NCBI RefSeq assembly: GCF_021922925.1
Contig: NZ_CP040786.1
Coordinates: forward strand, 2,046,001 to 2,110,000
Length of the DNA: 64,000 bases
Origin: Clavibacter phaseoli
GTDB lineage: Bacteria > Actinomycetota > Actinomycetes > Actinomycetales > Microbacteriaceae
Direction of reading: 5' to 3'
Part shown: positions 46,200 through 61,270 of the stretch, in pieces
How the letters are laid out: each line of letters starts with the position of its first letter
Numbering within the stretch: the first letter of the stretch is position 1
The notes under the pieces: model-generated
The model's input: the letters and a program-made list of their open reading frames with translations, nothing else
What the model was told of the DNA's origin: nothing
Databases searched by the model: none
Program-made: the position numbers and the translations under genes

Positions 46200-47309
46200 C
46201 TAGTCGCGGTAGCGGCCGGTGAGGCGCACGGCCCCGCCGTCGACGCCCTTGGCGCCCTGCTCGAAGCCGGCGCCCGCCGGGGCGTCGCCGATCGTGACGC
46301 GGCCGGCCTCCCACGTCGGGATGCCCGCGGCGGTGAGCGCGTGCGCGATGCCGTCCGCGGCCGCGGCGTCGACCACGGCGATCATGCCGATGCCGAGGTT
46401 CCAGGTGCCCTCCGCGCTCTCGAGCGTGGAGCCCGCGATGCCGGCCAGCGCGCGGAAGACCGCGGGCGGCGACCAGGTGGAGCGCTCGAGCTCGCTGAAC
46501 GACCCGCGCGGCAGCACGCGCGCGAGGTTCGCCGCGATGCCGCCACCGGTGACGTGGCTGATGGAGTGGACGCCGGGGCCGAGCTCCGGCTGCGCGAGCA
46601 CGTCGAGCAGCGGGGTCGTGTAGAGGCGCGTGGGCTCGAGCAGCACCTCGCCGACCACGCCGCCGAGCTCGGCCGAGGTGTCGCCGAAGCCGATGCCGGC
46701 GGTGGCGAGGATGTGGCGCACGAGCGAGAAGCCGTTGCTGTGCAGGCCGCTGGAGGCGAGGGCCAGCACGACGTCGCCGTCGCGGACGCGGTCGGATCCG
46801 AGCACGGAGTCGGCCTCGACCGCGCCGACCGCGGCACCCGCCACGTCGTAGTCGTCCGGGCCGAGGAGGCCCGGGTGCTCGGCGGTCTCGCCGCCGGCGA
46901 GCGCGGTGCCGGTGGCGGAGCAGGCGCGCGCGATGCCGGCGACGATGTCGGCGATGCGCGCGGGCACGACCTTGCCGCAGGCGATGTAGTCGGTCATGAA
47001 GAGGGGACGCGCGCCGACCACGACGATGTCGTCGACGACCATGCCCACGAGGTCCTGGCCGATGGTGTCGTGCTTGTCGATGGCCTGCGCGATGGCGACC
47101 TTGGTGCCGACGCCGTCCGTCGAGGTGGCGAGGAGCGGGTGGCGGAAGCGGGTGAGGGCGCTCGCGTCGAACAGCCCCGCGAAGCCGCCGAATCCGCCGA
47201 TGACCTCGGGGCCGTGCGTGCGGGACACGGCCTCCTTCATCAGCTGGACCGCGAGATCGCCGGCCTCCGTGTCGACGCCGGCCTCTGCATACGAGCTCTT
47301 GGTGGTCAC
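46200..47309 (-). CDS. purM: phosphoribosylformylglycinamidine cyclo-ligase
   Basis: A 369-residue AIR synthetase, step five of purine synthesis. YAEAGVDTEAGD, the ATP/metal motif LLATSTDGVGTKVAIA, DLVGMVVDDIVVVGARPLFMTDY, LAGGETAEHPG and ISHVTGGGIAANLARVLP are all present. The GTG at 47309 has a TACTCT -10 box six bases upstream (47316-47321), implying a leaderless transcript. It is divergent from purF with an 89-base gap that must hold both promoters. Confidence 0.96.
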   Translation of the reverse strand: MTTKSSYAEAGVDTEAGDLAVQLMKEAVSRTHGPEVIGGFGGFAGLFDASALTRFRHPLLATSTDGVGTKVAIAQAIDKHDTIGQDLVGMVVDDIVVVGARPLFMTDYIACGKVVPARIADIVAGIARACSATGTALAGGETAEHPGLLGPDDYDVAGAAVGAVEADSVLGSDRVRDGDVVLALASSGLHSNGFSLVRHILATAGIGFGDTSAELGGVVGEVLLEPTRLYTTPLLDVLAQPELGPGVHSISHVTGGGIAANLARVLPRGSFSELERSTWSPPAVFRALAGIAGSTLESAEGTWNLGIGMIAVVDAAAADGIAHALTAAGIPTWEAGRVTIGDAPAGAGFEQGAKGVDGGAVRLTGRYRD

Positions 47310-47315
47310 CGGGAC

Positions 47316-47321
47316 AGAGTA
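47316..47321 (-). promoter_or_regulatory. -10 box (TACTCT) giving a leaderless purM transcript
   Basis: Read on the minus strand, TACTCT is separated from the purM GTG by six bases. No Shine-Dalgarno sequence fits between them. Confidence 0.55.
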
Positions 47322-47398
47322 GCGGCCGGGCGCGCCGCTCCCGTGTGGGAGACTGGCCGCTCCCCCACCTCTTCTACTCTTCAGGAGTCAGCCGAAGC

Positions 47399-48859
47399 AT
47401 GTGCGGCATCGTCGGCGTCGTATCGTCCGAACCCGTCAACCAACTCGTCTACGACAGCCTCCTGCTCCTGCAGCACCGCGGTCAGGACTCCACCGGCATC
47501 GCCACGGCGGAGGGCAACACCTTCCACGTGAAGAAGCTCAGCGGCCAGGTCCGCGAGGCCTTCCGCACGCGCGACATGCGATCGCTCCTCGGCACCATGG
47601 GCCTCGGCCACGTGCGCTACGCCACCAAGGGCAGCGCGGCCGACGAGGACGAGGCGCAGCCGTTCTACGTGAACGCGCCCTACGGCATCGTCCTGGTGCA
47701 CAACGGCAACCTCACCAACACCCGCGAGCTCGCGCAGGAGCTGTTCCACGTGGATCGCCGCCACACCAACACGAGCTCGGACACCGAGCTGCTCGTCAAC
47801 GTCCTCGCGCACGAGCTGCAGTCGCAGGTGTCGGGCATGGCGCTGGATCCCGACCAGGTGTTCACCGCCGTCGAGCGGGTGCACGAGCGCGTCGAGGGCT
47901 CGTACGCCTCCATCGCGATGATCGCCGGGCACGGGCTGCTCGCGTTCCGCGACCCGTTCGGGATCCGCCCGCTCACCCTCGGCCGGCGCGAGCTCGCCGG
48001 CGGTCGGATGGAGTGGGTCGTGGCGAGCGAGTCGCTCGTCATGGAGTCGCTCGGCTACGAGATCGTGCGCGACGTGGCGCCCGGCGAGGCCGTCTTCATC
48101 ACCATGGACGGCGAGATGCACGCGCGCCAGTGCCACCCGAGGCCGCGCCTGATCCCCTGCGCGTTCGAGTTCGTGTACCTGGCGCGGCCCGACTCGGTCA
48201 TGTCCGGCATCAGCGTCTACGACGCGCGCCTGCGCATGGGCAACCGGCTCGCCGCCACCATCGCGGAGCACAGCCCGGCGGGCGACATCGACGTGGTCAT
48301 GCCGATCCCGGACTCGTCGCGCCCGTCGGCCATGCAGGTCGCGCAGACGCTCGGCATCGAGTACCGCGAGGGCTTCTACAAGAACCGCTACGTCGGCCGG
48401 ACCTTCATCATGCCGGGGCAGGCGCAGCGCAAGAAGTCGGTGCGGCAGAAGCTCAACGCCATGAGCTCGGAGTTCCAGGGCAAGAACATCCTCATCGTCG
48501 ACGACTCCATCGTGCGCGGCACGACCAGCCGCGAGATCGTGGACATGGCCCGGCAGGCCGGCGCCAACAAGGTGACGTTCACGTCCGCGGCGCCCCCCGT
48601 GCGCTACCCGCACGTGTACGGGATCAACATGCCGTCGCGGCAGGAGCTCATCGCGCACGGGCGGAAGATCCCCGAGATCGCGACCGAGCTCGGCGCCGAC
48701 CACCTCATCTACCAGGAGGTCGCGGACATGCGCGACGCCATCCTCGAGGGGTCCACCGGCGTGGAGGACCTCGAGATGAGCTGCTTCACGGGCGAGTACA
48801 TCACCGGCGACGTCACGCCGGAGTACCTGTCCTGGCTGGAGCGCACGCAGCTCAGCTGA
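47399..48859 (+). CDS. purF: amidophosphoribosyltransferase
   Basis: A 486-residue enzyme for the first committed step of purine synthesis. Cys2 in MCGIVGVV becomes the N-terminal nucleophile of the glutaminase after Met removal, and HRGQDSTGIAT follows. The phosphoribosyltransferase half has the PRPP loop ILIVDDSIVRGTTS. Unlike the Bacillus form there is no propeptide. CAGGAGT precedes the ATG. Divergent from purM. Confidence 0.97.
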   Translation: MCGIVGVVSSEPVNQLVYDSLLLLQHRGQDSTGIATAEGNTFHVKKLSGQVREAFRTRDMRSLLGTMGLGHVRYATKGSAADEDEAQPFYVNAPYGIVLVHNGNLTNTRELAQELFHVDRRHTNTSSDTELLVNVLAHELQSQVSGMALDPDQVFTAVERVHERVEGSYASIAMIAGHGLLAFRDPFGIRPLTLGRRELAGGRMEWVVASESLVMESLGYEIVRDVAPGEAVFITMDGEMHARQCHPRPRLIPCAFEFVYLARPDSVMSGISVYDARLRMGNRLAATIAEHSPAGDIDVVMPIPDSSRPSAMQVAQTLGIEYREGFYKNRYVGRTFIMPGQAQRKKSVRQKLNAMSSEFQGKNILIVDDSIVRGTTSREIVDMARQAGANKVTFTSAAPPVRYPHVYGINMPSRQELIAHGRKIPEIATELGADHLIYQEVADMRDAILEGSTGVEDLEMSCFTGEYITGDVTPEYLSWLERTQLS

Positions 48860-48892
48860 TCGGCGCGGCGGGCCCGTGGCTCGGGCGCCGGA

Positions 48893-49201
48893 TCAGGCGC
48901 CCGGCTCGCCCTGCTCGCGCTCGGCCGTGAGCACGCGGGAGCGGCGCGAGGCCGCGCGATCCAGCGCCAGCGCGATGAGCGCGGCGAGCCCGCCGAAGAG
49001 GACGACCGCGAACAGCGCGAGGAACGCCAGCACCTGGGCCTCGGAGAACTCCGGGTTCGGCGGGAACGTCAGCGTGAGGATCATCGCGACGACGATCCCG
49101 AGGACCGCTCCGACGCCCATGAAGCGGAAGTAGCGGGGGGACCGCCGCACGAGGACCTCCGTGCGGCGCTCGTCGTCGGGCTGGGGTCGGGCGTCGGTCA
49201 T
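48893..49201 (-). CDS. small two-helix membrane protein
   Basis: A 102-residue protein with a charged N-terminus (RRTEVLVRRSPRYFRF), two hydrophobic helices (VGAVLGIVVAMILTLTF and VLAFLALFAVVLFGGLAALIAL) and a basic tail. It is convergent with purF. Small proteins of this shape are common beside purF/purM in Microbacteriaceae-like genomes, but I know of no function. Confidence 0.75.
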   Translation of the reverse strand: MTDARPQPDDERRTEVLVRRSPRYFRFMGVGAVLGIVVAMILTLTFPPNPEFSEAQVLAFLALFAVVLFGGLAALIALALDRAASRRSRVLTAEREQGEPGA

Positions 49202-49259
49202 GGGTCCATCATCCCCCGCGCCGCGGACGCGGGGCGAACCGCGGCCGCGCAGGCGACGC

Positions 49260-49640
49260 TCAGCGGTCGGCCGGGAGCTCCCACGGCACGGGGAGGAGGC
49301 CGCGCAGGTCGGCGCGGAGCCCGGACGCGCGCACGGCGCCCGCCTCGACGCCCGCGTCCCAGCTCGTGCCGCCCGTGGCGAGCGCGATCCACGTGGCGGG
49401 GTCCGTCTCGATGACGTTCGGCGGCGTGCCGCGCGTGTGGCCCGGGCCCTCGATGCACTGGACGGCGCCGAAGGGCGGTACGCGCACCTCGACGGTGCCG
49501 CCGGGCGCGAGATCCGCCAGCGACTGCAGCAGGAACCGCACGGCGGTGGCCCGCGTCTCCCGGTCGGCGTCGGCGCCCCGGGCGAGCGCGGCCCGCACGG
49601 CGGGCTGTCCGACGGTGGGGTGGATGCGCGCCTTGGCCAT
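49260..49640 (-). CDS. sterol-carrier-like (SCP2-fold) small protein
   Basis: A 126-residue protein: VRAALARGADADRETRATAVRFLLQSLADLAPGGTVEVRVPPFGAVQCIEG followed by NVIETDPATWIALATG, the SCP2-like core seen in actinobacterial 'sterol carrier family' proteins next to purine genes. It may bind a hydrophobic ligand. The ATG at 49640 is preferred for matching the usual MAKARI start. Confidence 0.78.
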   Translation of the reverse strand: MAKARIHPTVGQPAVRAALARGADADRETRATAVRFLLQSLADLAPGGTVEVRVPPFGAVQCIEGPGHTRGTPPNVIETDPATWIALATGGTSWDAGVEAGAVRASGLRADLRGLLPVPWELPADR

Positions 49641-49743
49641 CGTCCCAGGATGCCAGAGCGGCGCGGCCCCTCGGCCCGCCCGGGGTCGCCGCACCCCTCC
49701 TACTGGGGCGTCGCGTCGTGTCCGTCCTTTGGGGGACATCCAT

Positions 49744-49935
49744 TACCGTGTATGGAAGTGCCCGGCGGTGACACGACCCGCCCGGCACGGCAGGACGTCC
49801 TCCCTCCCGTCGCCTCCCCGGGCGGCGGGAGGGGACGGACGACGTGCCCGCCGGCGGACCCGAAGAACGCCGGCGCGGCAGGGAGCCGACCCCACCCGTT
49901 CCCGCGGAGGGTCGGCTCCCCCTCCCCTGTCCTCC
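49744..49935 (+). ncRNA. candidate small RNA or long leader before purD
   Basis: A TACCGT -10-like box (49744-49749) stands in an unusually AT-containing patch (CATCCATTACCGTGTATGG). About 130 bases on, GGGAGCCGACCC (49881-49892) and GGGTCGGCTCCC (49909-49920) form a perfect 12-base hairpin followed by CTCCCCTGTCC, which looks like a terminator. The 371-base gap holds no recognised gene. purD has its own -10 box at 50000, so the region may be a separate short transcript. Confidence 0.35.
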
Positions 49936-49999
49936 CGACGGGCGGATGCCGTGCGCCCGCCGCCGCCCTCAGGGGCCCGGACCGGCGGGATCCCGTCGA

Positions 50000-50005
50000 T
50001 AGGGT
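50000..50005 (+). promoter_or_regulatory. -10 box (TAGGGT) giving a leaderless purD transcript
   Basis: TAGGGT ends six bases before the purD GTG at 50012. The intervening GGGGGC is too close to act as a ribosome site, so initiation at the 5' end is likely. Confidence 0.55.
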
Positions 50006-50011
50006 GGGGGC

Positions 50012-51262
50012 GTGAAGATCCTGGTACTCGGTTCCGGTGCGCGCGAGCACGCCATCGTCACGGCCCTGCTCCGGGAGGACGCGGGTCATGAGATCGTCGC
50101 GGCGCCCGGCAACGCCGGGATCGCGCGCGTCGTGCCCGTCGTGAAGATGGACATCGACGACCCCGCCATCGTCGCGGAGCACGCGCTCGCGGAGGGCGTC
50201 GAGCTGGTCGTCGTGGGACCGGAGGCGCCGCTCGTCGCCGGGGTCGCGGACGCGCTCCGCACCCGCGGCATCCCCGTCTTCGGGCCGGGCCGGGCGGCCG
50301 CCGCGCTCGAGGGATCCAAGACCTTCGCCAAGCGCATCATGGAGGAGGCGGGCGTGCCCACGGGCCGCGCCGCCCAGGCCGGCACGATCGACGAGGTCGA
50401 GGCCGCGCTCGACGAGTACGGCGCCCCCTACGTCATCAAGGCCGACGGCCTCGCCGCCGGCAAGGGCGTGCTCGTCACCGCCGACCGCACGCTGGCGCTC
50501 GAGCACGCCCGCCACTACCTCGGCCAGGGCACGGTGCTCGTCGAGGAGTTCCTCGCCGGGCAGGAGGTGTCGCTCTTCCTCCTCTCCGACGGGCACGACG
50601 TGGTCCCCCTCTCCCCCGCGCAGGACTACAAGCGACTGGGCGACGGCGACGCGGGACCGAACACGGGCGGCATGGGCGCGTACTCGCCGCTGCCCTGGCT
50701 GCCGGAGGGCTTCGTCGACGAGGTCATCGACACCATCGCGCTGCCCACCGTGCGGACGCTCGCGGCGGAGCAGACGCCGTTCATCGGGCTGCTCTACTGC
50801 GGCCTCATCCTGACCGCGGACGGCATCCGGGTGATCGAGTTCAACGCGCGCTTCGGGGATCCGGAGACGCAGGTCGTGCTGCCCCGCCTCGTCACGCCGC
50901 TCTCGCAGCTGCTCCTCGCGGCGGCCTCGGGCGAGCTCGGCGGGGTCGCGCGTCCGGAGTTCTCCGACGACGTCGCCGTCACCGTGGTCGTCGCGAGCGA
51001 GGGCTACCCGGAGGCGCCGCGGACGGGCCGCGTCATCCGGGGCGTGGAGGAGGCGGAGCGGGTCGAGGGCGTGAGCATCGCGCACGCCGCCACCGCCGAG
51101 TCGGACGCCGGGCTCGTCGCCACCGGCGGGCGCGTGCTCAGCGTCGTCGCGACGGGTCCCTCGTTCGCGGAGGCGCGGTCCCGCGTCTACGAGGCGGTCG
51201 GGCGGTTGTCGCTCGACGGGTCGCAGCACCGCACCGACATCGCCGCGCAGGTGATCCGATGA
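50012..51262 (+). CDS. purD: phosphoribosylamine-glycine ligase
   Basis: A 416-residue ATP-grasp enzyme, step two of purine synthesis. LVLGSGAREHAI opens the protein; VVGPEAPLVAGVADAL, the ATP-grasp LEGSKTFAKRIM and YVIKADGLAAGKGVLV, GGMGAYSP and IEFNARFGDPETQ are family hallmarks. The length is normal. Its stop overlaps the purC start (ATGA), so purD and purC are coupled. Confidence 0.96.
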   Translation: MKILVLGSGAREHAIVTALLREDAGHEIVAAPGNAGIARVVPVVKMDIDDPAIVAEHALAEGVELVVVGPEAPLVAGVADALRTRGIPVFGPGRAAAALEGSKTFAKRIMEEAGVPTGRAAQAGTIDEVEAALDEYGAPYVIKADGLAAGKGVLVTADRTLALEHARHYLGQGTVLVEEFLAGQEVSLFLLSDGHDVVPLSPAQDYKRLGDGDAGPNTGGMGAYSPLPWLPEGFVDEVIDTIALPTVRTLAAEQTPFIGLLYCGLILTADGIRVIEFNARFGDPETQVVLPRLVTPLSQLLLAAASGELGGVARPEFSDDVAVTVVVASEGYPEAPRTGRVIRGVEEAERVEGVSIAHAATAESDAGLVATGGRVLSVVATGPSFAEARSRVYEAVGRLSLDGSQHRTDIAAQVIR

Positions 51263-52179
51263 GCGCCGGGACGCCCGCGGGCCACGCCGCCGAGTGGGAC
51301 CTGCCGGGCTGGGAGCACGCGTACTCGGGCAAGGTCCGCGAGCTGTTCAGCCCCGCGATCGACGACACCGACGACCGCGCGCTCGAGGGCGAGCCGCACG
51401 TGCTCGTGGTCGCGACCGACCGCGTGAGCGCCTACGACTTCGCGCTCGAGCCGGGGATCCCCGGCAAGGGCGAGCTCCTCACGCAGCTCAGCCTCTGGTG
51501 GTTCGACCGGCTCGACGTGCCGAACCACCTGGTCGACGGCGCCACCCTCGACCGCATCGGCATCCCGGACGAGGTGCGCGGGCGCGCGATGCTCTGCCGG
51601 GTGCTCGAGATGCTGCCCATCGAGTGCGTGGTGCGCGGCTACCTCGCGGGATCCGGCTGGGAGGAGTACCGGCAGCACGGCACGGTGTGCGGCATCCCGC
51701 TGCCGGCCGGGCTCGCGCAGGGCGACCGCCTGCCGGAGCCGATCTACACGCCCGCGTGGAAGGCGCCGCAGGGCGAGCACGACGAGAACATCACCTTCGC
51801 GCGCACCGAGGAGCTCGTGGGGCACGAGGAGGCGGCGCGTCTCCGCGACCTGTCCCTCGACGTGTACCGCCGTGCGTCGGCCATCGCCGAGGAGCGCGGC
51901 GTGATCCTCGCGGACACCAAGTTCGAGTTCGGCATCGACCCGCGCACGGGCGTCACCACGCTGGCCGACGAGGTGCTCACGAGCGACTCGTCGCGCTACT
52001 GGGACGCCGAGGCGTACGCGACCGGCAACCGCACCGACAGCTTCGACAAGCAGATCGTGCGCGACTGGCTCGCGGCGAACTGGGATCGCACCGGCACCCC
52101 GCCCGTCCTGCCGCAGGAGATCGTGGAGCGCACGGCCGAGCGGTACCGGGAGCTCATCGCGCGGCTCACCGGGCGCTAG
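51259..52179 (+). CDS. purC: phosphoribosylaminoimidazole-succinocarboxamide synthase
   Basis: A 306-residue SAICAR synthetase, the longer actinobacterial/yeast form. YSGKVRELFS (ATP loop), VATDRVSAYDFAL, GKGELLTQLS, ECVVRGYLAGSGW and LADTKFEFGID are conserved. It begins within the purD stop codon. It ends near a GC-rich inverted repeat (GGGCGC...GCGCCC, 52180-52204) that may serve as a terminator for it and the convergent gene. Confidence 0.96.
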   Translation: MSAGTPAGHAAEWDLPGWEHAYSGKVRELFSPAIDDTDDRALEGEPHVLVVATDRVSAYDFALEPGIPGKGELLTQLSLWWFDRLDVPNHLVDGATLDRIGIPDEVRGRAMLCRVLEMLPIECVVRGYLAGSGWEEYRQHGTVCGIPLPAGLAQGDRLPEPIYTPAWKAPQGEHDENITFARTEELVGHEEAARLRDLSLDVYRRASAIAEERGVILADTKFEFGIDPRTGVTTLADEVLTSDSSRYWDAEAYATGNRTDSFDKQIVRDWLAANWDRTGTPPVLPQEIVERTAERYRELIARLTGR

Positions 52180-52229: not shown

Positions 52230-52448
52230 CTAGAGGTGGTCGTAGCCGCGGACGACGCGGTCTATGGCGACCTCGGCCACCTCGCGGGCGTCCGCGTCGG
52301 GCAGCTCGTCGAGCGCGCCCTCGATGTCCTGTCCTCCCATGCGGAGGACGGCGAGGCGCTCGAACTCCTCGACGGCCTCGGGCGTGGGCTCGGCGGTCGC
52401 GCCCTCGGGTGCGGCGTCGTCGGCGTGCGGGTCGATGTGCTGGTCCAT
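52230..52448 (-). CDS. small acidic protein of unknown function
   Basis: A 72-residue, strongly acidic protein with an Asp/Ala/Pro-rich N-terminal third and a helical remainder, FERLAVLRMGGQDIEGALDELPDADAREVAEVAIDRVVRGYD. GAGGGGACCC lies upstream of the ATG. It is convergent with purC and divergent from the large fusion gene. I do not recognise a family. Confidence 0.6.
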   Translation of the reverse strand: MDQHIDPHADDAAPEGATAEPTPEAVEEFERLAVLRMGGQDIEGALDELPDADAREVAEVAIDRVVRGYDHL

Positions 52449-52662: not shown

Positions 52663-55284
52663 GTGACATCCGCTCCCCTACCCGCATCCGCCCTCGACGC
52701 GAGCGTGCCGCCGCGCGTCCGCCTCGCCTCCGGCGCGGTGCCGCCGAGCGAGGACGCTCCGGGGACCGCGGTCGCCCTCGTGCGCCAGGCGCTCGCGGCG
52801 ACGCCCCCGGGGCCTGGCTGGACGACGGAACGGGCGCTGGCGCTCGCGGTCGCGCTGGGCGAGAGCGGTGCCCGGCCGGGATCCGGCGGCACGGCGGACC
52901 TGTGGGAGGCGCTCGCGACGCTCGCCGCCGCGGATCTGGGCATCGCGCGCACGGTCGAGCCGCACCTGGACGCGCTCGCGATCCTCGACCAGGAGCGGGA
53001 CGCCGCGGGCGGCGGCGGCTCCGGGCTCCCGGCCGACGGGGAGGACGGACCCGAGGCGCGCACGTGGGGCGTCTTCGCGGCCGAGGGCGGCGGGGATCCG
53101 CTGACGGCCGTGGCGGACGCCGACGGGTCCGACGCGGTGCTGCTGTCCGGCACGAAGCCGTGGTGCTCGCTCGCCGGGTCGCTGACGCACGCGCTCATCA
53201 CCGCCGCCGTCGCCGACGGCACGCGCGGGCTCTTCGCGGTGGACCTGCGGCACGCGGGCGTCGAGGTCGTGCCCGGCGCATGGGTCGCCCGCGGGCTGAC
53301 CGAGGTCCCCAGCGGGCCGCTGCGCATGCGCGACGTGCCGGCGCGACGCGTGGGCGCGCCCGGCTGGTACCTCGAGCGGCCCGGGTTCCACTGGGGCGGG
53401 ATCCAGGTCGCGGCCTGCTGGTACGGCGGCGCGGTCGGGCTGGCGCGCACGCTGCTCCGGGCCGCCTCCCGCGAGGGCGCCGACCGCCTGCTCCTCATGC
53501 ACCTGGGCGCGGTCGACGCGACGCTCGACGGCGCGCGCGCGTCCCTCGCCGAGGCGTCCCTGCTGGTCGACCGCGGGCTCGCGGAGGGCGAGGAGGGGCG
53601 CCTTCTCGCCAAGCGCGTGCGCGCCGTCGTCGCCCGGGCGGTGGACGAGACGCTGACGCACGTCGCGCACGCGCTCGGCCCGGCGCCGCTCGCGCAGGAC
53701 GCGGATCACGCCAAGCGCGTGGCCGACCTGGAGCTGTACGTGCGGCAGCACCACGCCGAGCGCGACGACGCCTCGCTCGGCGGCGCGCTCGCGGAGGGGG
53801 CCAGGCGGCGGACGGCGGAGGCGACGGCGGCGGATGCCGGCGCCCCTGCCTCCGGGGCGCCCACGGGCACCGAGCAGGTGTCCGCGCCCGCCCCGAGCCC
53901 CGCGGGCGGCGTCGCCTTCGACGCGCGCGAGCCCGGCACCGACGCGGACGCCTGGGACGCGGATCCGCGCTGGGACGCGCTCGCCGCCCCCGACCTCGCG
54001 GGGATGGCCGCGCTCCTCGTGGTCTCCGCGCACGCCGACGACGAGTCCATCGGCGCCGCGGGCCTCATGGCGACCGCGGCCGCGCGCGGCGTGCCGGTGA
54101 CCCTCGTGATCGTGACGGACGGCGCCGCCTCGCACCCCGGATCCCCCACGCGCACGCCCGACCAGCTCGTCGCCCTCCGCCGCGACGAGGCCCGCGCCGC
54201 CCTCGACGCCGTCGCGCCCGACGCCCGGCTCGTGCTCCTCGGCCACCCGGACGGCGGGATCCGCGAGCGCCGCGACGCCGTGCGCGATGACCTCGCCGCG
54301 CTCCTCGCCGACGCCGCGCCGGGCACCTGGGTCGCGGCGCCGTGGCGCGGCGACGGGCACCGGGACCACCGCGTCACGGGCGAGGTCGTCGCCGAGCTGG
54401 TGGGCGCGCTGCCCGCCGCGCGCGGGATCCGGCTGGTGGAGTACCCGGTCTGGATGTGGCACTGGGCGACGCCCGCCGACCCGCGCGTGCCGTGGGCCGC
54501 GATGCGCGCCCTGCCGCTCGACGAGCCCGCGCGGGAGGCCAAGCGGGCGGCGATCCGCGCGCACGCCAGCCAGGTGGATCCGCTCTCCGACGCCCCCGAG
54601 GACGCGGCCGTGCTGCGGCCCGGCTTCCTCCGGCACGCCGACCGCGACCGGGAGGTGCTGATCGTGGGCGAGGACGCGCCCGCGACCCCGACCGCCGCCG
54701 AGCGCTTCGACGCCGCGTACGCCCGGGCGGAGGATCCGTGGCGCGTCCAGACGCGCTGGTACGAGCGCCGCAAGCGCCTCGCCACCCTCGCGGCGCTGCC
54801 GGACGAGCGGTACGGCCGGGCGCTCGAGATCGGCTGCTCCATCGGCGTGACGACGGCGGGCCTCGCCGAGCGCGTGGACGAGCTGCTCGCGGTGGACGTC
54901 GCGCCGACCGCGGTCGAGCGGGCCCGGGCGCGCCTCGCCGACGCCCCGCACGTGCGCCTCGAGGTGCGCGACGTGGGCGCCGACTGGCCGGACGGAGCCT
55001 TCGACCTCGTCGTGATGAGCGAGGTCGGCTACTACCTCGACGACGCCGCGTTCGACCGCGTGCTCGCCGCCCTGCCCGACGCCCTCGGCGCCACGGGCAC
55101 GCTCGTCGCCTGCCACTGGCGGCACCCGGAGGGCGACTTCCGGCGCACGGGCGACGAGGTGCACGCGCGGCTGGCCGCCGTCCCCGGCCTGCACGTGCTG
55201 GCGCGGCACGAGGAGGACGACTTCCTGCTCGAGGTGCTGTCGGCGGATCCGCGCTCGGTCGCGACCCGCACGGGGCTGCGATGA
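52663..55284 (+). CDS. triple fusion: acyl-CoA dehydrogenase-like, PIG-L deacetylase, NodS-like methyltransferase
   Basis: An 873-residue protein with three enzyme domains. Residues ~10-390 match acyl-CoA dehydrogenase-like flavoproteins (SGTKPWCSLAGSLTHALI, PGFHWGGIQVAACWYGGAVG). An Ala/Pro linker (~390-440) leads to a PIG-L/LmbE zinc deacetylase with AHADDESIGAAG (His457, Asp459, Asp460) and GHRDH (His566, Asp568, His569). From ~685 a class I SAM methyltransferase of NodS type has AEDPWRVQTRWYERRKR and LEIGCSIGVTT (Glu722). These are usually separate neighbouring genes. The last codon overlaps the glycosyltransferase start (ATGA). Together they suggest making an N-modified, possibly lipidated aminosugar; the product is unknown. 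Confidence 0.87.
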   Translation: MTSAPLPASALDASVPPRVRLASGAVPPSEDAPGTAVALVRQALAATPPGPGWTTERALALAVALGESGARPGSGGTADLWEALATLAAADLGIARTVEPHLDALAILDQERDAAGGGGSGLPADGEDGPEARTWGVFAAEGGGDPLTAVADADGSDAVLLSGTKPWCSLAGSLTHALITAAVADGTRGLFAVDLRHAGVEVVPGAWVARGLTEVPSGPLRMRDVPARRVGAPGWYLERPGFHWGGIQVAACWYGGAVGLARTLLRAASREGADRLLLMHLGAVDATLDGARASLAEASLLVDRGLAEGEEGRLLAKRVRAVVARAVDETLTHVAHALGPAPLAQDADHAKRVADLELYVRQHHAERDDASLGGALAEGARRRTAEATAADAGAPASGAPTGTEQVSAPAPSPAGGVAFDAREPGTDADAWDADPRWDALAAPDLAGMAALLVVSAHADDESIGAAGLMATAAARGVPVTLVIVTDGAASHPGSPTRTPDQLVALRRDEARAALDAVAPDARLVLLGHPDGGIRERRDAVRDDLAALLADAAPGTWVAAPWRGDGHRDHRVTGEVVAELVGALPAARGIRLVEYPVWMWHWATPADPRVPWAAMRALPLDEPAREAKRAAIRAHASQVDPLSDAPEDAAVLRPGFLRHADRDREVLIVGEDAPATPTAAERFDAAYARAEDPWRVQTRWYERRKRLATLAALPDERYGRALEIGCSIGVTTAGLAERVDELLAVDVAPTAVERARARLADAPHVRLEVRDVGADWPDGAFDLVVMSEVGYYLDDAAFDRVLAALPDALGATGTLVACHWRHPEGDFRRTGDEVHARLAAVPGLHVLARHEEDDFLLEVLSADPRSVATRTGLR

Positions 55285-56072
55285 CGGGCGGGTCGGCGGC
55301 GGCGGCGGAGCCGGCCGCGCGGATCCGCGCGGTCACGGTCGTCATCCCGGCGCGCGACGAGGAGGAGCTGGTCGGCCGCTGCCTCGCGTCGGTCGAGGTC
55401 GCCGCAGCCCGGGCGCGCGCCGCGGGGGTCCGCGTGCGCGTGATCCTCGTGGCCGACGACTGCCGGGACCGCACCGCCGAGGTGGCGCGCGCCGCCGGCG
55501 TCGAGGTCATCGAGAGCGCTGCCGGGCGCGTGGGCGCCGCGCGCGCCCAGGGCGTCGACGCGGCGCGAGCGGGCTGGGACGGCGACGACGCCGAGCACTG
55601 GATCGCGTGCACCGACGCCGACTCCGCGGTGCCGCCCGCGTGGATCACCAGCCAGCTGGAGCTCGCGGACACCGGGACCGACGTGGTCGTCGGCACCGTC
55701 CGCCCGGAGCTCGACGACCTCAGCCCCGCGCAGGTCGAGGCCTGGCGCGCCACGCGCGTGCCCGGCCACGCCAACGGGCACGTGCACGGCGCGAACCTCG
55801 GCGTGCGCGCCGACGCGTACGTCGCGGCCGGCGGGTTCCCGGCCGTCGCGGAGCACGAGGACGTCGACCTCGTGACGCGGCTGCGGGGCATGGACGCGCG
55901 GATCACGGCGTCGGCGGCCGGCGAGGTGCTCACGTCCAGCCGTCGCGAGGGCCGCACGCCCGGCGGCTACGCGGGGTACCTGCACGTGTCGCTGCTGGAG
56001 CGGGCGCGCGAGCGGGAGCTCGAGCGCCAGCGCGCCGCGGGGTGCGACAGCCCCTGCGTGCCGGCGGGCTGA
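55281..56072 (+). CDS. GT2-family glycosyltransferase coupled to the triple fusion
   Basis: A 263-residue GT-A fold glycosyltransferase. VTVVIPARDEEELVGRCLASV binds the nucleotide, CTDADSAVPPAWI holds the metal-binding DAD, and VAEHEDVDLVTRLRG supplies the catalytic ED. GHVHGANLGVRADAYVAAGGFP is the acceptor-loop region. There are no membrane helices, so it acts in the cytosol. It is translationally coupled to the fusion gene. The Cys/Pro tail after the Arg-rich helix is short. It likely transfers the sugar that the deacetylase and methyltransferase then modify, or adds to it. Confidence 0.87.
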   Translation: MTGGSAAAAEPAARIRAVTVVIPARDEEELVGRCLASVEVAAARARAAGVRVRVILVADDCRDRTAEVARAAGVEVIESAAGRVGAARAQGVDAARAGWDGDDAEHWIACTDADSAVPPAWITSQLELADTGTDVVVGTVRPELDDLSPAQVEAWRATRVPGHANGHVHGANLGVRADAYVAAGGFPAVAEHEDVDLVTRLRGMDARITASAAGEVLTSSRREGRTPGGYAGYLHVSLLERARERELERQRAAGCDSPCVPAG

Positions 56073-56087
56073 CCGGACGTCCGTCCG

Positions 56088-56582
56088 TCAGCTCGTCGTC
56101 GCGGCGTCGTCCGCCATCCTGCGCGTCCCCGCTGCGGTCCCCTCCGCGACGGCCCGCACGACGGCGGCCGCCGTCCGGAACTGCTCGGCGGTGAACCCGT
56201 CGAGCGCGCGGTCGACCTCGGCCTGCGCGCCCTGCAGCACGGCCATCACGCGCGTCCGGGACGCGGCGGTCGGCCGCAGCGTGACCACGCGCCGGTCGGC
56301 GACCTCCCGGCTCCGCCCGATGTGCCCGCCGCCCTCCAGCCGGTTGATGAGCGCGGTCGTGGCCCCCGAGGTCAGGTGCAGCCGCTCCGAGAGTCGCGCC
56401 GGGGACAGAGCCCGGCCGGCGGTCTCCGCCCAGATCACCTCGGCGAGCGCCGTCGTGTCCGTCGTCGGCAGCCCGATGGCCGCGGCCAGCTGCCGCACCG
56501 AGTCGTCGAAGGCGGTCGTGTGGTCCCGCAGCCGCTCGAGCACCTCGGAGCGGTCCCCGGGGACCGCGATGGTGTGGGACAT
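56088..56582 (-). CDS. MarR-family regulator
   Basis: A 164-residue MarR protein. The wHTH is at ~55-115, with LSPARLSERLHLTSGATTALINRLEGGGHIGRSREVADRRVVTL. A GGAGGA site precedes the ATG. It is divergent from the FAD monooxygenase at 56691 and a near-perfect palindrome sits between them, so it is the likely repressor of that gene and itself. The inducer is probably the monooxygenase's phenolic or antibiotic-like substrate. Confidence 0.88.
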   Translation of the reverse strand: MSHTIAVPGDRSEVLERLRDHTTAFDDSVRQLAAAIGLPTTDTTALAEVIWAETAGRALSPARLSERLHLTSGATTALINRLEGGGHIGRSREVADRRVVTLRPTAASRTRVMAVLQGAQAEVDRALDGFTAEQFRTAAAVVRAVAEGTAAGTRRMADDAATTS

Positions 56583-56607
56583 GACGTGATCCTCCGAGAC
56601 GTCGAGA

Positions 56608-56640
56608 ATGCTTCACGGTAAAGCATCTACGCCATAGAGT
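56608..56640. promoter_or_regulatory. MarR operator and monooxygenase promoter
   Basis: ATGCTTCACGGTAAAGCAT (56608-56626) is a palindrome with eight of nine pairs matching around a central G. It contains a -35-like TTCACG (56612-56617), with TAGAGT 17 bases downstream (56635-56640) as the -10 of the plus-strand monooxygenase gene. Binding here would block that promoter. Confidence 0.65.
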
Positions 56641-56690
56641 CTACTCGCGCCCGGGATCCCGGGGCAGCCCGACGATCGAGGAGATCACCC

Positions 56691-57920
56691 ATGGCCGACA
56701 CCGCCCACCACCGCCCGAGGGTCCTCGTGACGGGAGCCAGCATCGCCGGGCCCGCGCTCGCCTGGGGCCTGCATCGCGAGGGCTTCGACGTGACCCTGCT
56801 CGAGCGCTCGGCAGAGCAGCGCCAGGCGGGGCAGAACATCGACGTGCGCGGCCTCGGCCGCGACGTCCTCCGGCGCATGGGCATCGAGGACCTCGTGATG
56901 GCGAACCTCACGGGCGAGGACGGCACGCGCTTCGTCGACGAGGAGGGCCGCGTCCTCGCGACCTTCCCGCGCGCGGAGGGCGAGGACGGGCCGACGGCCG
57001 AGGTAGAGATCCTGCGCGGCCGGTTCGCGGGGATCCTCGTCGACTTCGTGCGGGACGACGTCGAGATCCGCCACGGCGACTTCGTGACCGGGGTGCGGCA
57101 GGACGCGACGGGGGTGGACGTCGAGCTCGCGAGCGGATCCCGCGAGCGCTACGACCTCCTGCTCGTCGCCGAGGGCCGCAGCTCCCGCACGCGTCGGCTG
57201 GCGTTCGCCGAGGAGACCACCCTCCGCGACCACGGCGTGAGCATCGCCTACGGGACGATCGACCGCGTCCCCGGCGACACGGGCTACTGGGACTTCCTCA
57301 CGGGACGCGGCGCGCGGAACGCGACCATCCGGCCCGACGACGAGGGCACCATCCGCGCGAGCCTGTCGTTCGAGTCGGAGCCGTCCGGCTTCGAGCAGCT
57401 GCCGTTCGACGCCCAGATGACCGTGCTCCGCGCGCGCTTCCGCGGCGCGGGCTGGCGGGTCGAGCGGATCCTCGACGGCTTCCAGGCGCGACCGGACGAG
57501 TTCTACACGCAGCGCATGGAGCAGGTGATCGTCTCGACGTGGTCGAAGGGACGCATCGCGCTCCTCGGCGACGCGGCGTGGGGATCCGGCCCCACGGGGA
57601 TGGGCACGACCCTCTCGCTGGTCTCCGCCCACGTGCTCGCGGGCGAGCTGGGACGCGCCCTCGCGGACCCCGCCGACACCTTCGCCGCCGCGTTCGCGCG
57701 CTACGAGGCGCAGCTCCGCCGCTACGCCGACAGCGCGCAGGGGCTGCCGCCGGGCGGGGCGCGCCTCACGCACCCGTCGTCCGCGGTCGGGCAGCGGGTG
57801 CTGCGCGGTGCCGTGCGGGTGGCCGCGTCCCGACCCGTCCGCGAGTTCTCCGACCGGTTCCTCCTGACGAGCGCGCGCCACGCGCCGACGCTCGCCGCCT
57901 ACCCGCGGCTGCGCGGCTGA
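56691..57920 (+). CDS. FAD-dependent monooxygenase (PHBH/TetX type)
   Basis: A 409-residue class A flavin monooxygenase that uses NAD(P)H and O2. FAD binds at VTGASIAGPALAWGLHREGFDVTLLER, the DG-like region is LLLVAEGRSSRTRR and the ribityl motif is IALLGDAAWGSGPTGMGTTLSLVSA. GAGGAG precedes the ATG. It has the TetX/aromatic hydroxylase architecture; detoxification or plant-phenolic oxidation is plausible. Regulated by the divergent MarR. Confidence 0.89.
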   Translation: MADTAHHRPRVLVTGASIAGPALAWGLHREGFDVTLLERSAEQRQAGQNIDVRGLGRDVLRRMGIEDLVMANLTGEDGTRFVDEEGRVLATFPRAEGEDGPTAEVEILRGRFAGILVDFVRDDVEIRHGDFVTGVRQDATGVDVELASGSRERYDLLLVAEGRSSRTRRLAFAEETTLRDHGVSIAYGTIDRVPGDTGYWDFLTGRGARNATIRPDDEGTIRASLSFESEPSGFEQLPFDAQMTVLRARFRGAGWRVERILDGFQARPDEFYTQRMEQVIVSTWSKGRIALLGDAAWGSGPTGMGTTLSLVSAHVLAGELGRALADPADTFAAAFARYEAQLRRYADSAQGLPPGGARLTHPSSAVGQRVLRGAVRVAASRPVREFSDRFLLTSARHAPTLAAYPRLRG

Positions 57921-57931
57921 CGAACGGGACC

Positions 57932-57959
57932 AGGGCGCGGCCGCTCGGCCGGGCGCCCT
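57932..57959 (+). terminator. terminator after the monooxygenase gene
   Basis: AGGGCGC-GGCCG-ct-CGGCC-gg-GCGCCCT folds into a 12-base stem with one bulge and is followed by CTCTT, 12 bases after the stop. Confidence 0.7.
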
Positions 57960-58061
57960 CTTGGCCGGCTCATCGGATCGCCATGGCCGCCGCATCGGAT
58001 CGCCCGGCACGGTGGGCACGTCCCGACCGCCGGGGCACGACGAGACCGAGATGAGACGAAC

Positions 58062-59081
58062 ATGAGCCGCATCCCCGAACCCGACCGCACCCCCGACGGC
58101 CCCGCCTACGAGGGCCGGCTGCTCGCCCGCGCCGACGAGGAGGTGGTCGACCAGGGAGCCGGCTTCGACCTCCGGACGCTGCTGAGCCGGCGGGCCGTGC
58201 TCGCCTACCTCGGGGCGGGCATCGGATCCGTCGCGCTCGCGGCCTGCACGAGCGGCGCCAGCGGATCCACCGCGACCGGCTCCCCGTCCGCGGCCGCGAC
58301 GACCTCCACCGGCGAGATCCCCGACGAGACCGCCGGCCCCTACCCGGGCGACGGATCCAACGGCGCCGACGTGCTCGAGCGCTCCGGCATCGTGCGCAGC
58401 GACATCCGCTCCAGCCTCGACGGGGGCGCCAGCGCCGCGGGCGTGCAGATGGCGCTCACGCTCACGATCCTCGACACCGCGAACGGCGACGTCCCCTTCA
58501 CGGGCGCTGCCGTGTACGTGTGGCACTGCGACGCGGCGGGCGGCTACTCCCTCTACTCCGACGGCATCACGGAGGAGACCTACCTCCGCGGGGTGCAGGT
58601 CGTGGGCGACGACGGCACCGTGTCCTTCAGCTCGATCCTCCCCGCCTGCTACACGGGCCGATGGCCGCACATCCACTTCGAGGTCTACCCGAGCGTGGAC
58701 GACATCACCGACTCCACGAAGGCCATCGCGACCTCGCAGGTCGCGATCCCGCAGGACGCGTGCACGGCCGTCTACGCGCGCTCCGAGTACGCCGGATCCA
58801 GCGCCAACCTCGCGCAGGTCACCCTCGACTCCGACAACGTGTTCGGCGACGACGGCGGCGCCCTGCAGCTGGCGACCGTGACGGGCGACGCGACCGCGGG
58901 CTACTCGGTGGCGCTCACCGCGCGCGTCGACACGGCGACCACCCCGACGGCGGGGACCGCGCCCTCCGGCGGCGGCGCCGGTGGTGCGGGCGGCGGCGCG
59001 GGCGGGACCCCGCCCGCCGGCGCCCCGCCGACCGGCGGGACCGCGCCGACCGTCGCCCCCACGACCGGCGCCGACGGCTGA
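58062..59081 (+). CDS. exported intradiol ring-cleavage dioxygenase-like lipoprotein
   Basis: A 339-residue protein. A long N-region leads to Arg43-Arg44 in LSRRAVLAYLG and a lipobox ending at Cys62, a Tat-type lipoprotein signal. The catechol dioxygenase fold has the iron ligands Tyr162 (GGYSLYS), Tyr197 (ACYTGR), His203 and His205 (PHIHFEV). EETYLRGVQVVGDDGTVSFSSI is family-typical. The C-terminal ~55 residues are a Gly/Ala/Pro/Thr-rich low-complexity tail. Secreted intradiol-like proteins occur in actinobacteria and fungi and may attack aromatic compounds outside the cell. A tatA-like gene follows directly. Confidence 0.86.
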   Translation: MSRIPEPDRTPDGPAYEGRLLARADEEVVDQGAGFDLRTLLSRRAVLAYLGAGIGSVALAACTSGASGSTATGSPSAAATTSTGEIPDETAGPYPGDGSNGADVLERSGIVRSDIRSSLDGGASAAGVQMALTLTILDTANGDVPFTGAAVYVWHCDAAGGYSLYSDGITEETYLRGVQVVGDDGTVSFSSILPACYTGRWPHIHFEVYPSVDDITDSTKAIATSQVAIPQDACTAVYARSEYAGSSANLAQVTLDSDNVFGDDGGALQLATVTGDATAGYSVALTARVDTATTPTAGTAPSGGGAGGAGGGAGGTPPAGAPPTGGTAPTVAPTTGADG

Positions 59082-59113
59082 CGCCGGCTCACCGCGACCC
59101 GACAGGACACCCC

Positions 59114-59338
59114 ATGGGACTGCTGCAGAACCTCTCCGGCTGGCACGCCGTCGTCATCCTCACCGTCGTGCTGCTGCTCTTCGGGGCCGACCGGCTCCCC
59201 GCCCTCGCCCGTGGCGCGGGCGAGTCCATCCGGACCTTCCGGACCGAGGTGCGCGACGACGACGCGGATCCCTCCGCCGAGCCGTCGAACGCACCCGCGC
59301 CCGCGCCGCAGGACGCGGGCACCCGGATGAGGACGTAG
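59114..59338 (+). CDS. tatA: TatA/TatE-like twin-arginine translocase subunit
   Basis: A 74-residue protein with one N-terminal helix (WHAVVILTVVLLLFGADRLP), the F-G-x-x-(K/R)-L-P hinge and an amphipathic helix ALARGAGESIRTFRTEV, then an acidic/Pro tail. This is the TatA pattern. It lies 32 bases after a gene for a twin-arginine lipoprotein, so it may be a substrate-linked extra copy; tatC is not in the window. A duplicate of the main tatA is assumed but not shown. Confidence 0.87.
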   Translation: MGLLQNLSGWHAVVILTVVLLLFGADRLPALARGAGESIRTFRTEVRDDDADPSAEPSNAPAPAPQDAGTRMRT

Positions 59339-59365
59339 GGGCGCGCGCGGGGCGTGCCCGCCGGC

Positions 59366-59770
59366 TCAGGCCGCGGGGGTCCGACCCCGCGCCGCCTGCA
59401 GCGCCGCCCAGCGCCGGTGCGCGAGGACGTGCAGGACCAGGGAGGCCGCCCCGGCGACCGTGAGCGCCGCCGCGAGGATCCAGAGGCCGGTGTCGCCGCC
59501 GATCCCCGCCGCCACGGCGCTGACGACGGCCAGGGCCGCGAGCCCGATGCCCACCGCGAGGAGCCCGTTCGTCGGCGCCTCGAGCGGGCGCGGCGCGGAG
59601 TCCGGCGCAGGCACGCGATCCCACGTCACGATGAAGAGCGTCGCGATCGGACCGAGCACGATCGAGACGAGGAACCAGTTCCACCTCGATCGGCCCTTCT
59701 GCTCCGCGAGCCCCGCGTTCACGAGGGCGAGCGTGACCCACCCGTAGCTGCCGATCCACGTCTGATCCAT
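59366..59770 (-). CDS. four-helix membrane protein of unknown function
   Basis: A 134-residue protein with four hydrophobic segments: WVTLALVNAGLA, WFLVSIVLGPIATLFIV, LLAVGIGLAALAVVSAVAA and LWILAAALTVAGAASLVLHVLA. It starts MDQTWIGSYG at 59770, although an in-frame start six codons upstream is possible. Convergent with tatA. I see no family signature beyond the helices. Confidence 0.7.
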   Translation of the reverse strand: MDQTWIGSYGWVTLALVNAGLAEQKGRSRWNWFLVSIVLGPIATLFIVTWDRVPAPDSAPRPLEAPTNGLLAVGIGLAALAVVSAVAAGIGGDTGLWILAAALTVAGAASLVLHVLAHRRWAALQAARGRTPAA

Positions 59771-59834
59771 GCCCCGACCGTAGGGCACGGCCGCCGCCGG
59801 CCCGCGGCCCGGGCTATTTCCCCACCTGCTCCGC

Positions 59835-59840
59835 TACCCT
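59835..59840 (+). promoter_or_regulatory. -10 box (TACCCT) giving a leaderless short ORF
   Basis: TACCCT is followed by six bases (CCATCC) and then ATG at 59847, the same spacing as before purM and purD. It appears to be the promoter for the short ORF and the CorC-type gene together. Confidence 0.45.
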
Positions 59841-59846
59841 CCATCC

Positions 59847-59960
59847 ATGCACAGAACCGCGCGGGAGCCCGCTCCCGACAGCCACAGTCCCGGCGCCCGG
59901 ACGACCCCGGGCACGCCCCGCGCACTCCGCGCCACCCGCCAGACCGGCGCCCGCTCGTGA
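59847..59960 (+). CDS. 37-residue leaderless upstream ORF coupled to the CorC-type gene
   Basis: ATG at 59847 opens a frame that encodes 37 residues rich in Arg, Pro, Ala and Thr (MHRTAREPAPDSHSPGAR...). Its TGA (59958-59960) overlaps the GTG of the next gene in GTGA. With a -10 box six bases before the ATG it would be translated from the 5' end and deliver ribosomes to the downstream start, which lacks a ribosome site. It may be a leader peptide rather than a functional protein. No homologue is known to me. Confidence 0.45.
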   Translation: MHRTAREPAPDSHSPGARTTPGTPRALRATRQTGARS

Positions 59961-61270
59961 ACGGCGACCTCGTCCTCAACATCGTCCTGGTCGTGGTGTT
60001 CGTCCTCGTCGGCGGCGTGTTCGCCGCCACCGAGATGGCGCTCGTCACCCTCCGCGAGGGCCAGCTCAACGCCCTCGCCGCCCGCGGCCGCCGCGGCGAG
60101 AAGGTCGCCGCGCTCGCCCGGAACCCCAACACCTTCCTCGCGGCGGTGCAGATCGGCGTCACCGTCGCCGGCTTCGCGTCGGCCGCGTACGGCGCCTCGT
60201 CGATCGCGCCGTCCGTGGTGCCGCTGCTCGAGTCGTGGGGCCTCGAGTCCGGCCTCGCGTCCACGATCGCGACCCTCCTGCTGACGCTGATGATCGCCTA
60301 CCTGTCGCTCGTGCTCGGCGAGCTCGCGCCCAAGCGCCTCGCCATCCAGCGCAACGCGGGCTTCGCGTACGGCGTCGCGCCCGTGCTCAACGGCTTCGCG
60401 AACCTCATGCGCCCGGTGATCTGGCTGCTCTCCGTCTCGACGAACGTGGTCGTCCGCCTCCTCGGCGGCGACCCGCACAAGACCGGCGAGGAGATGAGCG
60501 AGGAGGAGCTCCGCGACATCGTCTCCAGCCACGAGGGCCTCCCGGACGACGAGCGCCGGATCCTCGACGACGTGCTGTCGCTCCGCCACCGCCAGCTCAG
60601 CGAGGTCATGAAGCCGCGGCCCGAGATCGCCGCGCTCGACGGCACCGGCACCGTCCGCGACGCGGGCATCGACGTGCAGGACCGGCCGTACTCGCGCTAC
60701 CCGGTGGTCGACAAGACCATCGACGACGTCATCGGGTTCGTGCACGTGCGCGACCTGTACCAGGCGATCGCGGCGGATCCCACGCGGCCCGTGTCCGAGA
60801 TCCTCCGCCCGATCCCCTACCTCCCGGCGACCGCGCGCGTGCTGCCGACGCTGACGATGATGCGCGCCGAGGGCCACCAGATCGCCGTGATCGTGGACGA
60901 GTACGGCGGCACCGACGGCATCGTCACGCTCGAGGACCTCGTGGAGGAGGTCGTCGGCGAGATCTTCGACGAGTACGACACCGACTCGGCCGCGCGCGAC
61001 CTCGCGGAGGACGGCGGCACGATCGACGGCCGCCTCAACTTCCAGGACTTCGAGGAGGCGACGGGCGTCAAGCTGCCCGACTCCGCGTCGGACACGGTCG
61101 CGGGCTTCGTCATCGAGAACCTCGGCCGGCTCGCGCAGGTCGGCGACACGGTCGAGGTCGACGGCGTGACCCTGCAGGTGACGGCGCTCGACCGGCGGCG
61201 GATCTCCGAGATCCTCGTCATCCCGCGGGAGGAGCCGGCGACGGAGGACGCGGCCGCCGCGACCGCCTAG
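59957..61270 (+). CDS. CNNM/CorC-HlyC-family membrane protein (hemolysin family)
   Basis: A 437-residue protein in the usual domain order. A CNNM transmembrane domain (~1-190; [30 protein letters not shown]) precedes two CBS domains (~210-330; [57 protein letters not shown]) and a CorC/HlyC FAD-like domain (~345-425). Such proteins are linked to magnesium or cobalt export and membrane integrity. The GTG at 59957 has no ribosome site but overlaps the stop of the short ORF before it. Confidence 0.9.

Follow-up and report, generated by a model that had tools for sequence, protein, structure and literature searches.

Two overlapping genes on the forward strand of Clavibacter phaseoli (contig NZ_CP040786.1, positions 2,046,001 to 2,110,000, a stretch of 64,000 nucleotides hereafter called the window) encode a triple-fusion protein (52663..55284) and a small GT2 glycosyltransferase (55281..56072). 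The fusion joins a predicted flavoprotein of the acyl-CoA dehydrogenase (ACAD) fold, a PIG-L deacetylase (PIGL) and a NodS-like S-adenosylmethionine (SAM) methyltransferase (MT) in one chain, and it derives from a widespread cassette in which these enzymes and the glycosyltransferase (GT) are encoded by separate genes. That the fused enzymes and the GT act in one pathway, as the original prediction had proposed, is well supported by gene order and fusion, because the same four genes recur in two phyla and several orders, reshuffled and repeatedly fused; a series of fusions within one bacterial family strengthens the claim. With moderate confidence, we read the two genes as the Clavibacter form of a four-component cassette that would make an N-methylated, oxidised glucosamine conjugate, plausibly stress-related.

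The four-gene cassette and its fusions

The fusion gene starts with GTG and encodes 873 residues. An alternative in-frame ATG at 52264 would give 1006 residues; in alignments, most relatives start at or near the GTG at 52663 instead. The open reading frame (ORF), the Pfam matches, the relatives and the model of the ACAD domain all bear out the earlier statement that three enzymes share this chain. In the first of them (residues 47-385 as modelled, 52801..53817), the Pfam match to the acyl-CoA dehydrogenase middle domain is weak (residues 148-225, 24.1 bits, under the cut-off of 33.3). The ACAD part is nevertheless genuine, because relatives match it across most of its length in sequence searches and its model is a confident full ACAD fold (predicted local distance difference test, pLDDT, 88.5; predicted template modelling score, pTM, 0.90); in the whole-fold comparison of this domain, a family's absence from the match list is no evidence. 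The PIG-L domain (residues 452-579, 54016..54399) scores 87.8 bits (cut-off 28.2) and the NodS-like domain (residues 689-796, 54727..55050) 58.7 bits (cut-off 24). The motifs AHADDE (residues 456-461, 54028-54045) and GHRDH (residues 565-569, 54355-54369) of the deacetylase and LEIGCSIG (residues 721-728, 54823-54846) of the methyltransferase are present as first described. Between the ACAD and PIG-L domains lies a linker (residues 389-417, 53827..53913) that varies among the aligned relatives and has a pLDDT <50. Structure modelling, suggested earlier as a way to the domain interfaces, gave none: the full-length model reaches a pTM of 0.45 with the linker modelled as disordered and without a reliable domain arrangement, and thus no interface is claimed.

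The GT2 gene encodes 263 residues (Pfam 64.2 bits, cut-off 23.3) and contains a TDAD motif at 55611-55622. Its ATG, at 55281, overlaps the TGA of the fusion at 55282-55284; this ATGA overlap (55281-55284) is the arrangement for translational coupling with the GT that had been described.

In a search for related proteins, 26 of the 41 proteins found align with the window over all three domains (46–97% identity), and 24 of these are 77–97% identical to it. The other two, the ENA sequences P0036 and P0042, keep all three domains at 46–47% identity, so that the triple form extends past close relatives. Two Clavibacter proteins are shorter and miss a portion of the fusion (P0018, 659 residues, has no methyltransferase Pfam match; P0035, 645 residues, covers 43% of the ACAD query). 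All 25 aligned Clavibacter-type triple fusions have AHADDE as their deacetylase motif; P0036 and P0042 have AHPDDE, and 10 other aligned relatives have AHPDDE or PHPDDE. In Arthrobacter rhombi (P0037), a topoisomerase IB region is joined to a cassette-type ACAD, perhaps via a frameshift; a topoisomerase IB gene is also close to the cassette in Cupriavidus (L039:10889-11908).

The stages of fusion are found in the Microbacteriaceae, to which the window belongs as Clavibacter by its nearest named relatives in the protein search. The ACAD domain is present in 96 of 249 genomes at E ≤ 0.001 (88 below 1e-40, the other eight weak). Outside Clavibacter, 20 loci were fetched, seven of them chosen for a long open frame. 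In all 20, the four genes share a strand and span no more than 5 kb, and 17 have the order ACAD-PIGL-MT-GT. In 16, PIGL and MT share one stop-free frame; a single frame with ACAD, PIGL and MT occurs in none of the 20. In contrast, the triple frame is present in all five Clavibacter loci of the scan, the window included. Microbacteriaceae thus show separate genes, the PIGL–MT fusion and the ACAD–PIGL–MT fusion.

Beyond this family, the scans covered Actinomycetota, Pseudomonadota and plasmids. A spread sample of 246 Actinomycetota genomes contains 15 matches including the window's own, two of them weak and without a cassette; of the 12 remaining loci, nine carry all four genes, in five different orders, and three are incomplete (one ACAD-PIGL, one ACAD alone, one MT-ACAD-GT). 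On plasmids, tblastn gave 30 records; five of the six loci examined have all four genes together, while a Cupriavidus locus occurs without an adjacent PIG-L. In the Kitasatospora plasmid locus, the GT sits in an unannotated gap. A named set was formed from the best 80 of at least 567 confirmed relatives in named genomes, all Beta- or Gammaproteobacteria by name. Of these 80 loci, 52 have the complete linked set, in the orders ACAD-PIGL-MT-GT (48), GT-ACAD-PIGL-MT (3) and PIGL-GT-ACAD-MT (1); a linked GT is missing from 14 loci and a linked PIG-L from 13, and in one (L080) the other three genes lie about 6.5 kb from the ACAD. In a spread sample of 299 Pseudomonadota, 22 of 98 matches (centre genome included) score far above ordinary ACADs. 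Among the 21 loci taken from that sample (one of these genomes belongs to the named set as well), 14 have all four genes, four are without a linked GT and three have only ACAD and MT.

Across both phyla, the commonest row is ACAD-PIGL-MT-GT. In all 14 named genomes without a linked GT, a GT orthologue is found elsewhere in the assembly (262–298 bits, with other GTs of those genomes at 94 bits at most); a fragmented assembly may explain some of these cases. The search proposed earlier for a separate four-gene set and for other fusions has therefore yielded both, a widespread separate cassette and PIGL–MT fusions, and with linkage in 52/80, 14/21, 9/12 and 20/20 loci, the objection that the domains are rarely neighbours elsewhere clearly fails.

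The flavoprotein and its partner enzymes

Acyl-CoA dehydrogenases carry their catalytic Glu at one of two known positions. In eight ACAD controls, Glu is at the MCAD-type position in seven and at the IVD-type position in the eighth. In the alignment of 40 members of the cassette family (P0037 left out of 41), the MCAD-type column contains Ser (35), Asp (2), Thr (2) or His (1) and the IVD-type column Gly in all 40, so that Glu occurs at neither position in any member. The column that follows the MCAD-type position is His in 40/40, within an invariant RQxH motif; in the window, RQHHAERD (residues 361-368, 53743..53766) takes the place of the catalytic-Glu loop, and its second His is the one invariant in the family. 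The cassette family thus has the whole fold and the weak middle-domain match in common with the acyl-CoA dehydrogenases, without their catalytic residue. Desaturation of an acyl chain, suggested originally for the flavoprotein, is not supported, given this absence, and the family forms in the tree a separate long branch, apart from both ACADs and monooxygenase-type controls.

A Nod-factor-like lipo-sugar, with the ACAD part desaturating its acyl chain, would fit the combination of an ACAD fold and a NodS-like methyltransferase. The missing Glu speaks against it, as do the methyltransferase, which scores 73.1 bits against the NodS equivalog of NCBIfam (cut-off 300), and the lack of an acyltransferase among the eight neighbouring window ORFs scanned (none had been noted as adjacent in the original prediction either); we consider such a product very improbable. 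The likeness to Nod-factor tailoring is nevertheless real in part: the methyltransferase is above the cut-off of the Pfam NodS family, NodS is its second closest match in the PDB, and the logic of sugar transfer, de-N-acetylation and N-methylation (NodC, a GT2, NodB and NodS) is the same. The cassette differs in its small soluble GT2, its ACAD-fold flavoprotein and the absence of any acyltransferase seen adjacent, besides the missed equivalog cut-off. In place of the NodB-type deacetylase, which we take to be of another family, it has PIG-L.

The global profile of the flavoprotein is nearer to the monooxygenase-type control set (8.9e-22) than to the ACADs (5e-14), the 10 controls of that set being named by Pfam score only. 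Matches to PDB profiles include TdsC/DszC (1.7e-11, 7e-10), MsuC (4.9e-9), KijD3 (8e-7) and DnmZ (5e-6). With these ACAD-fold monooxygenases and nitrososynthases, the family has in common the whole fold, a GTKxxCSGA-type stretch (as in TdsC and DszC), an N-terminal His (also in 10/10 of the controls) and the absence of the catalytic Glu. Such likenesses, together with partner enzymes predicted to make and methylate an amine, would suit an aminosugar N-oxygenase like KijD3 and DnmZ, acting after deacetylation, with or without N-methylation, to give an N-hydroxy, nitrone or nitroso sugar. On the other side, the family has its own invariant RQxH, no match to PF08028 in any of the 41 members and a branch of its own; it is nearer by profile to the ACAD-fold monooxygenases, yet separate from them. 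We hold this specific N-oxygenase assignment to be possible, at rather low probability.

In the PIG-L domain, the metal-site residues (H and DDE of AHxDDE and both His of the GHxDH-type motif) are invariant in 11 aligned sequences, and the closest solved relatives by profile are diacetylchitobiose deacetylases. Scores against the NCBIfam equivalogs of BshB, MshB and Mca (48.1, 45.2, 22.9 and 23.7 bits) are under the cut-offs (195.25, 182.5, 224.35 and 277.15, respectively), and on these scores we reject the thiol pathways of mycothiol and bacillithiol. The same genome contains two more PIG-L genes (G000:C1:470473-470964 and 405952-406386). For the methyltransferase, the closest solved relative is PDB 4isc, a chain named just "Methyltransferase"; since it matches the cassette profile at 1.9e-60, a cassette member may have been solved already.

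In the GT2, D112 and D114 of the DxD motif are invariant in 24 sequences. The NCBIfam equivalogs of the arsenosugar GT (TIGR04283, 51.5 bits, cut-off 182) and MftF (44.4 bits, cut-off 280) are not reached. Its profile relatives include chondroitin synthase and undecaprenyl-phosphate aminoarabinose transferases, as could be expected if the cassette decorated a cell-envelope glycolipid or polymer, with the GT2 working at the membrane surface on an acceptor that is a lipid or a polymer. These matches are weak (2.4e-9 at best), the domains belong to families of soluble proteins, and the neighbour clusters examined contain no recurrent exporter, acyltransferase or polymer gene; an envelope acceptor seems unlikely to us.

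Neighbourhoods and stress genes

The cassette of separate genes, which the original prediction missed, is not only widespread but tied to stress genes in Pseudomonadota. As stress markers we counted trehalose or glycogen genes, catalase and non-homologous end joining (NHEJ) genes within about 10 kb of the cassette. They are present in 36/75 loci of the named set (five loci <14 kb left out), in 10/21 sampled Pseudomonadota loci and in 4/6 plasmid loci, versus 2/40 control regions (20 kb each, from 11 genomes); Fisher tests against the controls give 7e-7 for the named set and 1.7e-4 for the sampled Pseudomonadota, values that serve as guides only. In many Pseudomonas loci, the row reads GlgA, TreZ-type GH13, MalQ, TreY, DUF2934, GH13 and then the cassette; in others, the cassette has ligD on one side and ku on the other. 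In Comamonas antarctica, otsA and otsB flank it, and in Legionella lytica an otsB and a GH65 gene precede it; otsAB, catalase or PA2169-type genes are found close to it in Acinetobacter, Delftia and others. Some of these neighbour names rely on BLAST and Pfam matches. The neighbouring trehalose routes differ and are non-homologous, which argues against the inheritance of one single neighbourhood.

Independent support comes from Acinetobacter baumannii RNA sequencing (PMC5660220, not itself a stress study), where Table 2 marks ACICU_02432-02435 (GT, MT, LmbE, ACAD) as one operon that falls 31- to 62-fold in two colistin-dependent mutants, with otsA, otsB and catalase. A row of the same four enzyme kinds, with a DUF2171 gene in it, is drawn near a blue-light photoreceptor gene (blsA-type) in the gene map of PMC9020721. 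Unlike in Clavibacter, the genes are separate there, and the accessible parts of these two papers give them no function. In Acinetobacter ursingii, in a row that is matched by sequence (L036), a DUF2171 gene precedes the cassette (L036:6432-6665). LmbE, glycosyl transferase and methyltransferase are listed as blsA neighbours in STRING (PMC9948694), and in PMC11348943, katE, otsA and otsB fall together, as does a DUF2171 gene; the acyl-CoA dehydrogenase of that table, which stands beside a nonribosomal peptide synthetase set, is probably another gene. The cassette is not mentioned in the accessible text of a Curtobacterium desiccation study (PMC12029717). We found no description of a function for it in the searchable open literature, in part only excerpts, where its genes appear in one table of expression data and one gene map; as a pathway, it appears undescribed in the literature searched.

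In the window itself, genes of the purM, purF, purD and purC types lie on one side of the cassette (46200-52179), and genes for MarR, FAD_binding_3, Dioxygenase_C and CNNM/CorC-type proteins on the other (56088-61270).

The proposed pathway

In the reading we prefer, the soluble GT2 would transfer an N-acetylated sugar, probably N-acetylglucosamine, to an acceptor; the PIG-L domain, with diacetylchitobiose deacetylases as its closest solved relatives, would take off the acetyl group; the NodS-like domain would methylate the freed amine; and the ACAD-fold flavoprotein would oxidise the same aminosugar conjugate, not a fatty acyl chain. The fusion would join the three soluble enzymes through flexible linkers and so fix their ratio. 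Plausibly, the product is a small glycoconjugate with a link to stress, because in many Pseudomonadota the cassette is among trehalose, catalase and NHEJ genes; for Clavibacter, whose copy adjoins purine genes, the stress role is an extrapolation.

Several observations weigh against this reading. We infer every chemical step from enzyme family. Stress markers occur in just 3/13 Actinomycetota loci (one of the 13 being a false hit) and in 3/20 Microbacteriaceae loci, no clear excess, and there is none in the 22 kb of the window around the Clavibacter cassette; even in the named set, 39/75 loci show no marker of any of the three classes. The plasmid loci and the named set were themselves the source of the markers, and lineages related to one another do not count as independent. 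Both published Acinetobacter rows, ACICU_02432-02435 and the one near blsA, are identified from annotation and gene order and not from sequence. Finally, 11 of the 13 named genomes without a linked PIG-L hold no PIG-L detectably like that of the cassette, so that the pathway may do without deacetylation or achieve it by other means.

A second PIG-L subfamily (query from L039) is a candidate replacement where no cassette PIG-L is linked. It is found in 12 of those 13 genomes (the thirteenth, G253, has an unlinked PIG-L of cassette type) and in 4/22 genomes with a linked cassette PIG-L (0/2 and 4/20), and at one further locus (L159) it sits in the cassette row itself. On the other hand, 7 of 14 fetched loci of this subfamily (including L255-L261, about 4–13 kb) have phosphoenolpyruvate-mutase, thiamine pyrophosphate-enzyme and aminotransferase genes as neighbours (by BLAST clusters, with Pfam on one representative each), a neighbourhood that resembles phosphonate synthesis, with lineages confounded. 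In several Pseudomonas loci (L072, L076, L083, L098, L112, L120 and others; about 13.1–13.9 kb), a second PIG-L gene follows the cassette GT.

A bolder form of the preferred reading, which we put forward only tentatively, is that an undescribed but widespread pathway, under stress regulation at least in Pseudomonadota, produces a glucosamine conjugate that is both N-methylated and N-oxygenated, via a third branch of the ACAD superfamily, neither acyl-CoA dehydrogenase nor known monooxygenase subfamily, with three of the four enzymes in one chain in Clavibacter.

With the cassette, a conserved pathway becomes visible in many genera of soil, plant-associated and clinical bacteria, where its genes carry unconnected annotations (acyl-CoA dehydrogenase, LmbE/PIG-L, SAM methyltransferase, glycosyltransferase). 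Because the cassette repeatedly adjoins trehalose, catalase and NHEJ genes, its product is a candidate stress metabolite, and the separate branch of its flavoprotein is a caution against reading such genes as fatty-acid oxidation.

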